A stretch of 64,000 nucleotides of DNA, taken from contig CACXGN010000005.1 in NCBI GenBank assembly GCA_902767225.1, positions 1 through 64,000 of the forward strand, in the 5' to 3' direction. The notes below the pieces were generated by a model. The model searched no databases. It was not told the origin of the DNA and saw only the letters and a list, made by a program, of their open reading frames with translations. This DNA comes from an uncultured Eubacteriales bacterium. GTDB lineage: Bacteria; Bacillota; Clostridia; Christensenellales; Borkfalkiaceae. The translations under genes and the position numbers were made by a program. Positions 50,764 to 56,132 of the stretch are shown piece by piece (positions within the stretch are counted from its first letter, which is position 1; every line of letters starts with the position of its first letter).

Positions 50764-52749
50764 TTATCTGCCGAAGCCGCCTTTGCCGCCCATACCGCCG
50801 GGAGCACCACCGGGGCCGCCCATGTTGCCGCCGCCCATACCGCCGTAAGAAGAACCTATCGTGGTTATAATGCTCGATACCGTGAACGAAGTTACTTGGC
50901 TATTGTTTGCATAAACCGTGTAAGTGCTGCCTTTTAGTAAATTCGGACTGCTAAATATTATAGACTGGCAAGTCTTTTTAAGCGTAACATTTATAACGGT
51001 ATTATTTGAACCGTCTTTAACGGTTATAACTGTGCCTGCGGAAAAGGAAGAACTGTTTGCATAGGATACTACGTATTGAGTAGAGTTATTTGACGGAGTT
51101 TCGACCATACCGAGGGTGGAAGTTACGAAAAGCGTTCCGCCCGTAACTATTACTCCCGAATCCGCGTCAAGCCCAGCGTTACCGCCGTTTAACGGACCGT
51201 ATACGATAGTTGTTCCGCCGCTGATAAGCACGCTGCCGTTAGAGTCAATCCCGTCACCGGACGCATCGACCGTTACCGTTCCGCCCGATATTATGATATA
51301 TTCGTTTATCGAGTTATCGTCGCTTGCCGCGTTTATTCCGTCGTCGTTGGCAACTATATCTATCGTCCCGCCGGATATTTTAACGTAAGCGCCTTCGATA
51401 CCCTCGTAACAAGAATTTATGGTTATATTTCCGCCCGCTATTTCGGTCAAATAATCGGAAGTTATGCCATCGTCTAACGTCGTCAAATCGAGAGTTCCGC
51501 TTGTTATCGTAACGTTACCCGAATTCGTATGAATAGCGTCGTCTGTGGAATTTACGGTTATCTCCGCATTTTTGATTAAAATCGCATAGTCGCCGTCTGT
51601 TACTTCGATTTCATTTCCGTCCGCATCTTCGTATTCGATCTCGCCGACCTTAATTCCCTTTGCGCTTTGGCTTAGAGCGTATCTCGAAGAATAAGAAGTG
51701 TTGGAATCGGACGCGATCCGCTTATAGGAAGATCCGCTTAAAACGTATTTATAGTCGTCTGTTTCTAAACCGTATGTCGTGATATTTTCGGATGAGTACG
51801 ACACGAAAGATCCAACAGTCGTTATATCGAGATTACCGCCGTTGATATATACAAGAGTATCAGCCTGAATACCATCTCCGTTTACATTGCAAGTATATTC
51901 AACGTCTTTTAAAGCCACGAACCCTTCGCTGTAATCTTCGGGGAAAGCCGTCGTTTCGTCATCGCACTCGGCATTAAGCCCGTCTTTTTGTGCAGAAGTT
52001 ACGTTTATTGTGCAATCGTTAGCGGTTATAAACCTAGCAGCAATACCGTGATTTGCGGAAGAAACGTTTAACGTAGCGTCAACGATCTGCAAGCCCTTGC
52101 TTACTTTTATTGCGTTTTTACTTGAAGAGTTGACGTTGATCGTTCCCTGTCCGTTAATATTAAGCGTTCCTTTAACATGGATCGCATTGACGTCAGTTCC
52201 GTCGTTTTCAATAGTGTTTACGGAATTTTCCACCGCGGTTATAGTCAACGTGGATTTTTTGTTTGTATTTGAAATTGCTATACCGTCTGAGTTCGTAATA
52301 GTTACGTTATTTAAGAATAAATGAACTTCTTCGTTGTTTGAAACGGTTATCACAATTCCGTTTTCATAATTACCGGAAAGAAGATAATCCCCCGCGGCAG
52401 TTATCGTTAAAGTATCTTCGCTGCCGGTCAATACCGTTACGGTATCGTCATATTCGGTATTTTCGCTAAGAGCGTCGAGTTCAAGAGTCAAGTAATCTTC
52501 TATTTCCATAGTATCCGTTCCTTCAACTTCGGAAGGAACGGTGCCCGTTCCGCCACCGCCTAAACTATCTCCGGGGTTAATAAAAGGTCCGCCTGAAGAA
52601 TTTCCGGATCCGCCAGAACTTCCGCCGATATCGGAAGACGGCGTTTCGCTTACCCCACAACCGGATAAACAAACCGTTACGGCAAGAATTACCGAAATAA
52701 GCGCTGTAAAAATTGTTGCAAAAAACTTTCTGAATTTTGATTTTTTCAT
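50764..52749 (-). CDS. Cthe_2159-like carbohydrate-binding beta-helix lipoprotein
   Basis: 661 residues. A signal peptide with lipobox LSGC ends at Cys31, so the protein is anchored outside the membrane. A Gly/Ser linker (about 38-65) is followed by many beta-helix turns with repeated patterns such as GTLNING, DGINAASDD and SGGTVTVDASGDGIDSNG, rich in Asp/Asn as in calcium-binding parallel beta-helices. This matches the Cthe_2159 (DUF4353) family, one member of which binds polysaccharide. The C-terminus is a Gly/Met-rich tail (GGMGGGNMGGPGG). No catalytic residues are recognised. It is divergent from a two-component system whose sites overlap its promoter. Confidence 0.85.
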   Translation of the reverse strand: MKKSKFRKFFATIFTALISVILAVTVCLSGCGVSETPSSDIGGSSGGSGNSSGGPFINPGDSLGGGGTGTVPSEVEGTDTMEIEDYLTLELDALSENTEYDDTVTVLTGSEDTLTITAAGDYLLSGNYENGIVITVSNNEEVHLFLNNVTITNSDGIAISNTNKKSTLTITAVENSVNTIENDGTDVNAIHVKGTLNINGQGTINVNSSSKNAIKVSKGLQIVDATLNVSSANHGIAARFITANDCTINVTSAQKDGLNAECDDETTAFPEDYSEGFVALKDVEYTCNVNGDGIQADTLVYINGGNLDITTVGSFVSYSSENITTYGLETDDYKYVLSGSSYKRIASDSNTSYSSRYALSQSAKGIKVGEIEYEDADGNEIEVTDGDYAILIKNAEITVNSTDDAIHTNSGNVTITSGTLDLTTLDDGITSDYLTEIAGGNITINSCYEGIEGAYVKISGGTIDIVANDDGINAASDDNSINEYIIISGGTVTVDASGDGIDSNGSVLISGGTTIVYGPLNGGNAGLDADSGVIVTGGTLFVTSTLGMVETPSNNSTQYVVSYANSSSFSAGTVITVKDGSNNTVINVTLKKTCQSIIFSSPNLLKGSTYTVYANNSQVTSFTVSSIITTIGSSYGGMGGGNMGGPGGAPGGMGGKGGFGR

Positions 52750-52867: not shown

Positions 52868-52895
52868 TTGATTTTTGATAAAATTATGTTATAAT
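52868..52895 (+). promoter_or_regulatory. Sigma-A promoter of the response regulator (predicted leaderless)
   Basis: -35 TTGATT (52868-52873), 16-bp spacer, extended -10 TGT-TATAAT (52890-52895). Counting seven bases from 52895 puts +1 at 52902, the A of the ATG. No ribosome binding site lies between. Confidence 0.65.
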
Positions 52896-52901
52896 AACAT
52901 C

Positions 52902-53591
52902 ATGGTAAAAAATTTAAACGTTTTATTAGTTGAAGACGAAAAAAGGCTGGCAAGCGCCATAAAGTTCTTATTTAAAGAAAATAAAATCGATTGCGAAACG
53001 GTATTTGACGGAAAAGAAGGTTACCAAAAGGCGCTAAATAACGAATACGACGTTATTATTTTAGACGTTATGTTGCCTAATCTTAACGGTTTGGAAATAC
53101 TTTCTAAACTTCGCAGATGCGGAAAAAATACGCCTATTATAATGCTTACGGCACGATCCACAGTTAACGATAAGATTACGGGATTAAATCTCGGAGCGGA
53201 CGATTATCTTCCGAAGCCTTTTGACTTTGACGAACTTATTGCGAGAGTTAAAGCCCTATCAAGACGAAGCGGTTTTGTGGTTATGAACGAAATATCACAC
53301 GGGGATCTATCGCTAAACTTATCGACAGGCGAACTTTCAAATAAGGATATAAAGGTAAAACTTAATTTTAAGGAAAAAGAAATAATGAAGTTATTCTTTA
53401 TTTCCCCCGACTCCGTTATAACAAAGGAAAGTTTATTAAACAAGGTTTGGGGCTCGGATTCTTTTGCTACCGATAATAACGTTGAAGCATACGTATCCTT
53501 TTTAAGAAAAAAATTAAAATTCTTAAAATCTAACTTAAATATAAAAAACTATCAGAAAGTAGGATATAAATTAGAGGAAGAAAATGATTAA
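52902..53591 (+). CDS. OmpR-family response regulator
   Basis: A receiver domain (acidic pair in LVEDE, phospho-acceptor Asp55 in ILDVMLPNLNG, Lys in YLPKPFD) is followed by a winged-helix DNA-binding domain with SVITKESLLNKVWG and NNVEAYVSFLRKKL. 229 residues. An upstream in-frame TTG at 52875 lies inside the promoter and is rejected. The ATG at 52902 coincides with the predicted +1. It overlaps the histidine kinase start by 8 bp, and likely controls the divergent surface lipoprotein. Confidence 0.9.
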   Translation: MVKNLNVLLVEDEKRLASAIKFLFKENKIDCETVFDGKEGYQKALNNEYDVIILDVMLPNLNGLEILSKLRRCGKNTPIIMLTARSTVNDKITGLNLGADDYLPKPFDFDELIARVKALSRRSGFVVMNEISHGDLSLNLSTGELSNKDIKVKLNFKEKEIMKLFFISPDSVITKESLLNKVWGSDSFATDNNVEAYVSFLRKKLKFLKSNLNIKNYQKVGYKLEEEND

Positions 53592-54813
53592 AAAACTTCG
53601 TGCCAAAATTATTATGATGACAATGTCCGTTATAGGAATAATGCTTTTAATTGTTGCTATAACATATTCGCTTTATAGTATCAACGGCACAAAAAACCGC
53701 ATTTTTCAATCGTTAGAGAGGGAAATATCAAAATATGAAGAACGCTCCGCAGTTACCCCGCCGGACGCGCCCACCGAAATAGGAAAAGGCGAAGGCGAAG
53801 GTGCGGGATACAAGCTTGATGTATGCGTGGCAAAATCTGATAAATCGACGGGCGAAATAACCACCCTATCAACAGACGTTTATATTGACGAAGAAGTTTT
53901 GACCGCTTCTATAAACGAAATATTAAAAGACAGGAAAAGATCGGGCGAACTTCCAAAGTATAAGCTTTTATATTCTTATGCAGATTCTCCCGACGCAGTA
54001 TATTTTGCACTTACAGACAACGGCATTTTGGCGAGCGAAGTAACAAGCGTTTGGCTAAATTCGCTTTTAATATTCGGAACGGTTTTTGCCGCGATATTTA
54101 TTTTAAGTATTTTTCTTTCAAAAATGGCGGTAAAACCGGTTGAAAAAACTATTGAAGAACAAAAAAGGTTTATTGCGGACGCGTCTCACGAATTAAAAAC
54201 GCCGCTAGCAGTTATTTCCGCCAACACTAAAATATTGAAAAACATCGATACGGGCGTAAACCCCAAAACTTCCGAGTGGCTGAAAAGCACGGAAGAAGAA
54301 GTCGATCACATGAGTTCTATTATTGCCGATATGCTTAATCTTGCGCAGAGCGAAGCGCTTCGCGAAATTTCTAAATCCGAATTCGATATGACAAGGCTTG
54401 CTTCGCAAATATGCTTACAGTTCGAAGCGCTATCATACGATAAAAACGTTTCGCTAGAATATGAGATAGAAGACGGAATAAACTACTTCGGAAACGAAAA
54501 GATGATAAAACAATTATTTATGATCTTTATCGATAACGCCATAAAATACGAGCCTTCGGGCGGAAAAATTTTGGTAAACCTAAAAAAATATAAAAATAAA
54601 AAGATATTTTCCGTAAAGAATTTCGGAACGGTTATTTCAAAAGAAGATCTCCCCCACGTGTTTGAAAGATTTTACCGCGCCGATAAAGCAAGAACTTCGG
54701 GTGGCGTAGGATTAGGGCTATCTATCGCTAAAAATATAATAGATCTGCACGGCGGCACGGTTAAAGTTTTATCAGAGCAAAACATAGGCACGGAATTCAA
54801 AGTTTTATTTTAG
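53584..54813 (+). CDS. Membrane sensor histidine kinase
   Basis: 409 residues. Two membrane helices (about 10-30 and 160-182) flank an extracellular sensor region of about 130 residues with no recognised fold. The H-box ADASHELKTPLAVI follows (His about 201), then the ATP-binding domain with FIDNAIKYEP (N-box), VFERFYRADKART and GVGLGLSIAKNII. There is no long HAMP domain. It forms a pair with the overlapping response regulator; the sensed signal is unknown, but the partner lipoprotein suggests an envelope or polysaccharide cue. Confidence 0.92.
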   Translation: MIKKLRAKIIMMTMSVIGIMLLIVAITYSLYSINGTKNRIFQSLEREISKYEERSAVTPPDAPTEIGKGEGEGAGYKLDVCVAKSDKSTGEITTLSTDVYIDEEVLTASINEILKDRKRSGELPKYKLLYSYADSPDAVYFALTDNGILASEVTSVWLNSLLIFGTVFAAIFILSIFLSKMAVKPVEKTIEEQKRFIADASHELKTPLAVISANTKILKNIDTGVNPKTSEWLKSTEEEVDHMSSIIADMLNLAQSEALREISKSEFDMTRLASQICLQFEALSYDKNVSLEYEIEDGINYFGNEKMIKQLFMIFIDNAIKYEPSGGKILVNLKKYKNKKIFSVKNFGTVISKEDLPHVFERFYRADKARTSGGVGLGLSIAKNIIDLHGGTVKVLSEQNIGTEFKVLF

Positions 54814-54816
54814 CTA

Positions 54817-54844
54817 TTGACAAATTAAATAATTGTAATATAAT
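54817..54844 (+). promoter_or_regulatory. Consensus promoter of the 32-residue ORF (predicted leaderless)
   Basis: -35 TTGACA (54817-54822), 16-bp spacer, -10 TATAAT (54839-54844). +1 falls at 54851, or the purine at 54852, which is the A of an ATG. The -35 starts 4 bp after the kinase stop codon. Confidence 0.7.
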
Positions 54845-54851
54845 TATTTTT

Positions 54852-54950
54852 ATGAAGAAAGAATATTGTCCTATAAAAATAGATATATCCTATTTTACAA
54901 TAAAGCAAATATTTTTTTCTGACGACGCATACTGGTCTGACTTCTATTAA
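54852..54950 (+). CDS. Putative 32-residue peptide with its own promoter and terminator
   Basis: ATG at 54852, stop TAA at 54948-54950. Composition is aromatic-rich (four Tyr, four Phe, one Trp) with one Cys; the N-terminus is MKKEYCPIKID and the end is SDDAYWSDFY. No family is recognised and no membrane helix or signal peptide is clear. It has no ribosome binding site; a consensus promoter puts +1 on its first base or one before it, and a GC-rich terminator begins 8 bp after its stop. The alternative is a small non-coding RNA of about 130 nt that happens to contain this frame. Confidence 0.45.
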   Translation: MKKEYCPIKIDISYFTIKQIFFSDDAYWSDFY

Positions 54951-54958
54951 AAATTAAG

Positions 54959-54983
54959 CCGCAAAATAATTTGCGGTTTTTTT
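54959..54983 (+). terminator. Terminator of the small transcription unit
   Basis: CCGCAAA (54959-54965) and TTTGCGG (54970-54976) with an ATAA loop, followed by seven T residues (54977-54983). With the promoter at 54817 it defines a transcript of about 133 nt. Confidence 0.85.
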
Positions 54984-55001
54984 ATTGCTTTTATTAAAAA
55001 C

Positions 55002-55033
55002 AAAAACCTACGGAATTTTCCGTAGGTTTTTGT
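55002..55033 (-). terminator. Terminator of the SIS-domain gene
   Basis: AAAAACCTACGGAA and TTCCGTAGGTTTTT form a stem of about 14 bp around a short TT loop; on the minus strand it ends the gene finishing at 55050. Confidence 0.85.
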
Positions 55034-55049
55034 TTATTCGGTAATTTAA

Positions 55050-56132
55050 TTACTTGGTTATGGTAATTTTATTGAGTGCTCTCGGAGAGTCTGGGTTATT
55101 ACCTATCGCACAACTAATCTTGCACGCAAACATTTGCGCAAAGAGAGCAAACGTAAACATCGCAAATTCTTCGGACGCGCTGAAATTTATAAACGCATCG
55201 TTGCACTTATCGAATTTACCGACAAGCAAGTCGTCGTTAGTGACCAAAAGAACGGGCGCATTTAAGCTTATCATTTTTTCGATACACTTAATTTGATCGA
55301 GACGAATATTGTTTTGCATTTCTTCGTCGCCGTTGTTCTTTGCACAATAAATTATAACAGGCGTCGTTTCGTTAACCATTGCCATAGGTCCGTGATAGAA
55401 ATCACTTCCCGCATACCCCTTCATTTGGATATAGCAAGTTTCCTGCAACTTTAAGGTAGCCTCTAACGCGATAGCGTAAGTTAAACCACGTGATAAAACA
55501 AACCCGCTCTTCATATCCTTAAATTTTGCAGCATATTTGGTTGTTAAATCGTCGATCTGCGGAAGAACGCCGTCAATATAATGTCTTAAATTTTTGAGAG
55601 TGAAAAGTTCTTCTTTATCATTTGCGATTTCTGCGGCAAGCCACAAAAGAAGATAGAGTTGAGCATTAAAGGTTTTGGTAGCCGCAACGCTGGACTCTAA
55701 TCCCGCGTCGCAATACAAGTGGTATTTAGCCTCTTTTGCCATCGGGCTTTCAAGATCGTTGGTAACTGCAATCGTTATAACGCCTTGTTCGTTACCTCTT
55801 TTCATAACTTCTAAAACGTCCGCCGCTTTTCCGCTTTGGCTACAACCTATAATAATACTGTTTTTATAGTTGATTTTACCTTTATATAAAGTTAAAACGC
55901 TGGACGCCGCAAGACCGACCGTATAATCCGTCATAACTTCGGTAAGATATTTAAAGTAAACAAGAGCGTGATTGGAAGTTCCGCGCGCAGCCGCAACGAA
56001 GTTCGTAGCGTCGCTTGCCTTAATATCGGCAACGAGTTTTTTCATTGTTTCGGCGTTGGCAGCCTGAATCCTATCGAATATCGCAGGCGTTTCGTTGATT
56101 TCTTTCCACATTATTGTTTCATTATACTTCAT
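55050..56132 (-). CDS. SIS-domain amino-sugar phosphate isomerase/deaminase (NagB-II-like)
   Basis: 360 residues with two SIS domains. SGKAADVLEV (phosphate loop, about 110) and ESSVAATKTFNAQ (about 148) match the GlmS isomerase half, without its glutamine amidotransferase domain. The catalytic region reads SDFYHGP, with Asp where GlmS has Glu before the KHGP-type stretch. Divergence from nagA suggests a glucosamine-6-phosphate deaminase, converting GlcN-6-P to fructose 6-phosphate, rather than synthesis. AGGGG precedes the ATG. Confidence 0.8.
   Translation of the reverse strand: MKYNETIMWKEINETPAIFDRIQAANAETMKKLVADIKASDATNFVAAARGTSNHALVYFKYLTEVMTDYTVGLAASSVLTLYKGKINYKNSIIIGCSQSGKAADVLEVMKRGNEQGVITIAVTNDLESPMAKEAKYHLYCDAGLESSVAATKTFNAQLYLLLWLAAEIANDKEELFTLKNLRHYIDGVLPQIDDLTTKYAAKFKDMKSGFVLSRGLTYAIALEATLKLQETCYIQMKGYAGSDFYHGPMAMVNETTPVIIYCAKNNGDEEMQNNIRLDQIKCIEKMISLNAPVLLVTNDDLLVGKFDKCNDAFINFSASEEFAMFTFALFAQMFACKISCAIGNNPDSPRALNKITITK

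Follow-up and report, generated by a model that had tools for sequence, protein, structure and literature searches.

The open reading frame (ORF) at positions 54852-54950 on the forward strand of the window (the whole 64,000-nucleotide stretch of DNA analysed) is probably a real gene. We estimate at about two in three the probability that it encodes the leaderless, orphan precursor of a RiPP system resembling that of the linear polyphosphorylated peptides (LPP), modified in trans. The ORF starts where the mRNA of a perfect-consensus promoter is expected to start, its product belongs to a peptide family detected with a held-out profile, and the three candidate modification enzymes are encoded elsewhere in the same genome.

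Promoter, ORF and terminator

A promoter, a 32-codon ORF and a terminator, all on the forward strand, occupy the gap between a histidine kinase gene and a SIS-domain gene. The -35 hexamer TTGACA (54817-54822) and the -10 hexamer TATAAT (54839-54844) each match the consensus at 6/6 positions and are separated by a 16-nt spacer. This sigma-70-type promoter (54817-54844, 12/12) was present as originally described and was the sole 12/12 site in a 4-kb scan. In sequence with matched dinucleotide composition the chance rate of a 12/12 promoter was approximately 0.001 per kb per strand, and 0 cases with an ATG 6-8 nt downstream occurred in 3 Mb of simulated sequence. The distance from TATAAT to the ATG at 54852 is 7 nt, and the A of this ATG is the first purine where transcription from the -10 hexamer should begin. 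This gap bears out the claim that the ATG lies at the expected +1; the transcription start itself (54851-54852) is predicted from the position of the -10 hexamer.

The ORF, MKKEYCPIKIDISYFTIKQIFFSDDAYWSDFY, ends with the TAA codon at 54948-54950; no Shine-Dalgarno (SD) sequence was found upstream of its ATG. It is followed by an intrinsic terminator (54956-54984), with a hairpin at 54956-54979 (10-bp stem including 4 G-C pairs, 4-nt loop) and seven Ts at 54978-54984. From the ATG to the end of the terminator (54852-54984) the unit measures 133 nt. This confirms the arrangement that was first described. The claim of a separate transcription unit held in part: the ORF has its own promoter, and the terminator is weaker evidence than had been thought. 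It may equally end the kinase operon, for which no other terminator exists, and is therefore no independent evidence for a separate unit.

Upstream, on the same strand, lie genes for an OmpR-type response regulator (52902-53591) and a histidine kinase with HisKA and HATPase_c domains (53584-54813, stop codon 54811-54813), the latter with an extracytoplasmic stretch of more than 100 residues between two hydrophobic segments. The response regulator (MVKNLNVLLVEDEKR...) probably starts at ATG 52902, 6 nt behind a TATAAT belonging to a 10/12 promoter, and not at the upstream TTG (52875) given by the ORF finder (window 52875-52904). Divergent from this two-component system, on the reverse strand, is a gene for an exported lipoprotein with a Cthe_2159 carbohydrate-binding domain (50764-52749). 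Downstream, a bidirectional hairpin (54998-55035) serves as terminator of the convergent SIS-domain sugar-phosphate enzyme gene (reverse strand, 55050-56132), which ends at 55050. The SIS gene is conserved in the genus; the peptide was absent beside the SIS homologues. No macrolactam cyclase or B2 protease gene was found beside the ORF.

The peptide belongs to an uncatalogued family

When 44 genomes of the genus were searched with the single peptide sequence, the best matches had E values of at least 0.05. Two of these, MKKKDYYKPIIKISKFTLEDVLFGSDSW... and MKKQYLPLELSINEFSVKNVVLASGNAD..., were true family members that share the N-terminus of the peptide and have a ribosome-binding site, and the ORF directly behind MKKKDYYKPIIKISKFTLEDVLFGSDSW... 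is a member as well. A profile built from relatives of the MKKKDYYKPIIKISKFTLEDVLFGSDSW/MKKQYLPLELSINEFSVKNVVLASGNAD type recovered many further members, bringing the collection to about 62. With the target left out, the profile scored the 54852 peptide at 22.8 bits (E=1.1e-5 among 3,098 small ORFs), and at 21.3 bits (E=3.3e-5) when its three seeds were removed as well; the best unrelated ORF in the held-out search reached 9.5 bits. None of 20,000 composition shuffles with MKK fixed attained the score of the peptide. Searching related genomes with the peptide thus produced relatives, weakly at first and then with the held-out profile.

The family consensus is MKKxYxxPxIxIxxFxxxDV[IL]xxS, after which comes a tail that varies and is mostly acidic, and the family resembles, as judged from sequence, RiPP precursors with a conserved Tyr-Pro leader and a variable tail. 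It occurs in 34/44 genomes of the genus and, at E≤0.01, in 26/245 genomes scattered through the class; three class matches (L168, L170 and L173) were judged spurious and dropped. Pfam and NCBIfam recognised 0/14 members tried, thiopeptide and other matches falling below cut-off. The family is uncatalogued and widespread in Clostridia. The original statement that the peptide matches no family therefore holds for these curated libraries; the peptide does belong to a large family, one that coincides with LPP-type RiPP precursors.

Within the family the 54852 peptide is a divergent member: the DV[IL] stretch that precedes the Ser is absent, and the Pro stands at Y+2, a position shared with two other members, against Y+3 in most. 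The Tyr-Pro motif is Y5-C6-P7 (54864-54872). The conserved Ser lies at Tyr+19 in 48 members and at +18 in the 54852 peptide, where it is Ser23 (codon 54918-54920). The search of the 44 genomes of the genus revealed no ortholog or syntenic copy of the ORF; a DNA-level search returned only short promoter-like and terminator-like matches, and an analysis of genome contigs anchored on the kinase gave distant kinases only. One genome, G283, may have as many as 17 family ORFs, and in several of these the tail is longer and ends in aromatic residues.

Leaderless layout in the genome and the genus

An SD-like tetramer precedes 61/62 family members, the sole exception being the 54852 ORF. We scanned 450 kb of this genome for ATGs that follow the -10 box of a promoter of at least 10/12 at a distance of 5-9 nt. 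This layout was found at 7/609 possible start codons in the N-terminal regions of long genes and at 8 of approximately 7,270 other ATGs, the 54852 ORF, which has its -10 box within this range and no SD sequence, being counted among the 8. The genes with this layout include the adjoining response regulator and those for a RarA-like ATPase, a TetR-type regulator and an S26-type peptidase. In sister genomes, DNA matches showed TTGACA-16-TATAAT-like-7-ATG at a glycerophosphodiesterase-like gene and others. Two further 12/12 promoters of the same genome, at L098:7526 and L096:7363, lie 7-8 nt before an in-frame ATG of exported-looking proteins; in the L098:7526 gene an inner ATG with an SD site is a possible alternative start.

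Bacteria are known to have leaderless genes in which a TATAAT-type box lies approximately 12 nt ahead of the start; in Firmicutes they are a minority, a small share of the genes in some genomes, and have been reported mainly for Lactobacillales and Mycoplasma (PMC3160421). The promoter-to-ATG geometry of the 54852 ORF is the same as that of these genes, whereas the organism belongs to a small-genome genus of Clostridia and the other members of the peptide family use SD sites. Family membership, together with the recurrence of this start layout at known genes in the genome and genus, supports the proposal of a leaderless micropeptide gene, translation being a prediction from the sequence. The strong promoter would give an mRNA with its 5' end at the ATG or one base before it, which ribosomes would read without an SD sequence.

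Relation to known phosphorylated peptides

LPP are RiPPs described in 2026 from the lpp cluster of Paenibacillus alginolyticus, in which LppB binds the YxxP motif, LppK phosphorylates Ser3 of the core and LppS cuts after the leader (PMC13381572). Their precursors were defined by a length of 35-200 aa, a conserved N-terminal YxxP-type motif and a variable C-terminus (PMC13381572). The present family shares with them a conserved N-terminal YxxPx[IVL]...S region and a variable C-terminus, and the associated proteins are likewise a discrete RRE, an HprK-like kinase and a SipW/archaeal-type peptidase. The leader consensus differs in detail, YxxPxIxIxxFxxxDVIxxS here and YxxPxVLxHQxIxFETxxS in LPP, and the Ser stands mostly at +19 in the family and at +18 in LPP, including LppA (S3). 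The family fits this precursor definition; the 54852 peptide, with 32 aa, is just under the 35-200 aa range and has Y-x-P in place of YxxP. It probably works like an LPP precursor, an assignment that stops short of strict membership of the LPP class. It also departs from LPP in being leaderless and orphan.

Lasso peptides of the phosphorylated paeninodin type are similar in having an RRE (B1), an HprK-like kinase acting on a Ser of the precursor and a [W/Y]xxP leader. Unlike these, the leader here is of the Y type, and no lasso cyclase or B2 peptidase was recognised in the class clusters examined.

Candidate modification enzymes

The genome encodes a stand-alone PqqD-type RRE (G000:C11:41352-41558; PF05402, E 7e-18; nearest solved match, TbiB1), directly preceded by an HprK-like kinase (L098:563-1312, contig 11). 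In a fold model of the kinase (pLDDT 92.7), HprK/P structures were the top matches, consistent with this assignment. A SipW/archaeal-type peptidase (G000:C3:124579-125037) carries the motifs GNSMWPT, VMHRV and LGD (Ser-His-Asp); its best NCBIfam matches, sigpep_I_arch and SipW, are both below cut-offs, and its Ser23-His62 spacing equals that of S29-H68 in LppS. None of the three genes is linked to the 54852 ORF, and the peptidase and the kinase-RRE pair lie on different contigs. The RRE is present in 44/44 genomes of the genus versus 3/14 control genomes and the SipW-type peptidase in 44/44; the kinase stands beside the RRE in this genome and in four other genomes of the genus, that is, in all that were checked.

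Other genomes of the class link the family with these enzymes. PqqD is encoded by 24/26 peptide-bearing class genomes versus 97/219 others (Fisher p 1.3e-6), and the peptide matches of the two remaining peptide-bearing genomes look spurious. An RRE lies within 2 kb of a peptide ORF in five class genomes. Genes for peptide, kinase, RRE and S26 peptidase follow in a row in G289, in G153 and at two loci of G284, the latter lacking the transporter; in G114 a kinase-RRE-peptidase run follows the peptide, and G159 carries a related run. The clusters of G289 and G153 also carry an MsbA-like ABC transporter and NTP_transf_5, as LPP clusters do with their NTP transferase, and their gene order equals the A-K-B-S-D-N set of lpp. 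The kinase and the RRE of the present genome are 38% and 45% identical, respectively, to their G289 counterparts, and the peptidase is 37% identical to that of G284.

By analogy with the LPP system (PMC13381572), the N-terminal part of the 54852 peptide, MKKEYCPIKIDISYF..., would be the leader, and its candidate Tyr-Pro motif would be bound by the stand-alone RRE. The kinase would then phosphorylate the Ser after the leader, Ser23, in trans. Cleavage by the peptidase near residue 20/21 may free a short acidic, aromatic core, about FFSDDAYWSDFY, for export.

Most family members adjoin genes for exported proteins

In the genus, all of the 27 family members that have a same-strand gene of at least 250 codons starting within 60 nt downstream showed a signal-peptide-like N-terminus in that gene; by the same crude rule the proportion in long genes generally is 32%. 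In the class genomes and at two loci of the genome under study, the exported protein lies just upstream of the peptide instead. The exported neighbours are InlB-repeat, MucBP, lectin-like or unassigned surface proteins. The genus thus differs from LPP clusters in that its precursors are scattered, most of them beside genes for exported proteins, with the enzymes elsewhere. The main text of the paper defining LPP makes no mention of Clostridia, of orphan precursors or of leaderless precursors (PMC13381572), so that, as far as checked against that text, the dispersed arrangement and the surface-protein association appear to be new.

The 54852 ORF, which follows the histidine kinase gene, is an exception to this adjacency. 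Of the earlier suggestion of a link to the kinase or the surface lipoprotein, the surface-protein part suits the family, most members of which abut exported proteins; for this particular ORF a link to either neighbour is hypothetical.

Several loci were noted in passing. On contig 3 of the same genome two tandem family ORFs (L094:4612-4852) lie directly behind a 788-aa exported protein and are followed by a terminator. Further family ORFs are found at L129:8492 and L097:8747, the latter also an orphan, adjoining a convergent GlpQ-like gene. In the apparently complete LPP-like clusters L259 and L260 (G289 and G153) an InlB-repeat exported protein is immediately upstream of the precursor.

Alternative explanations

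The strong promoter, the GC-rich terminator and the 133-nt size would also suit a small non-coding RNA, or one that an internal promoter of the two-component operon produces from its 3' UTR; the ORF would then be incidental or a relic. The missing SD sequence agrees with such an RNA, and the usage of the 32 codons, itself uninformative, does not favour coding (LLR -1.7 bits, below 97% of coding windows). Rfam, however, gave no family at gathering score, its weak matches being mostly to terminator hairpins, and an ORF arising by chance should not reach E=1e-5 with a held-out profile while also having its Met precisely where the leaderless start is predicted. The sRNA put forward originally as the alternative is for these reasons no longer the simplest reading, and we regard it as improbable. 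The divergence of the peptide (no DV, Pro at Y+2, 32 aa) leaves some room for a non-coding role and also for decay. The ORF might be a decaying orphan copy, still transcribed but no longer working, whose partner surface-protein gene and SD sequence have disappeared; the weaker motif, the short tail, the lack of an exported-protein neighbour and the lack of synteny in relatives would all be explained. Decay would not, however, create a perfect-consensus promoter spaced exactly as a leaderless start requires, and the frame is unbroken and retains the Y, P, hydrophobic and Ser positions, which makes this course of events unlikely too.

A leaderless precursor modified in trans accounts better for these features, and one refinement of it concerns signalling. 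The mature core, once exported, might be sensed by the upstream histidine kinase, the (phospho)peptide acting as a pheromone. The ORF directly adjoins the kinase gene, the kinase has the long extracytoplasmic stretch described above, and the response regulator is leaderless-like too. Yet no other listed family member lies behind a histidine kinase and LPP products have no known role, and we hold this refinement to be a long shot.

For the genus as a whole we tentatively propose, while doubting that it is correct in full, a dispersed phosphopeptide system. In it, each of the many LPP-like precursors would be co-translated with its own large exported surface protein, and a single universal kinase-RRE pair and a single SipW-type peptidase would act in trans on all of them. 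The modified peptide would mark, escort or anchor its partner, and the copy in the window would have been freed from its partner and placed under a strong leaderless promoter beside a two-component system. The adjacency to exported surface proteins offers a testable lead to function. LPP-like precursors are numerous in Clostridia and, in this one small-genome genus, are unlinked from their enzymes and adjoin genes for exported surface proteins; searches confined to gene clusters, to SD sites or to ORFs of more than 50 codons miss such precursors.

A different gene group was observed in G304, where two tandem PqqD-type genes (L266:787-1369) are followed by genes for a radical-SAM-like protein and two S26-like peptidases. 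It represents a different, possibly related peptide cluster.
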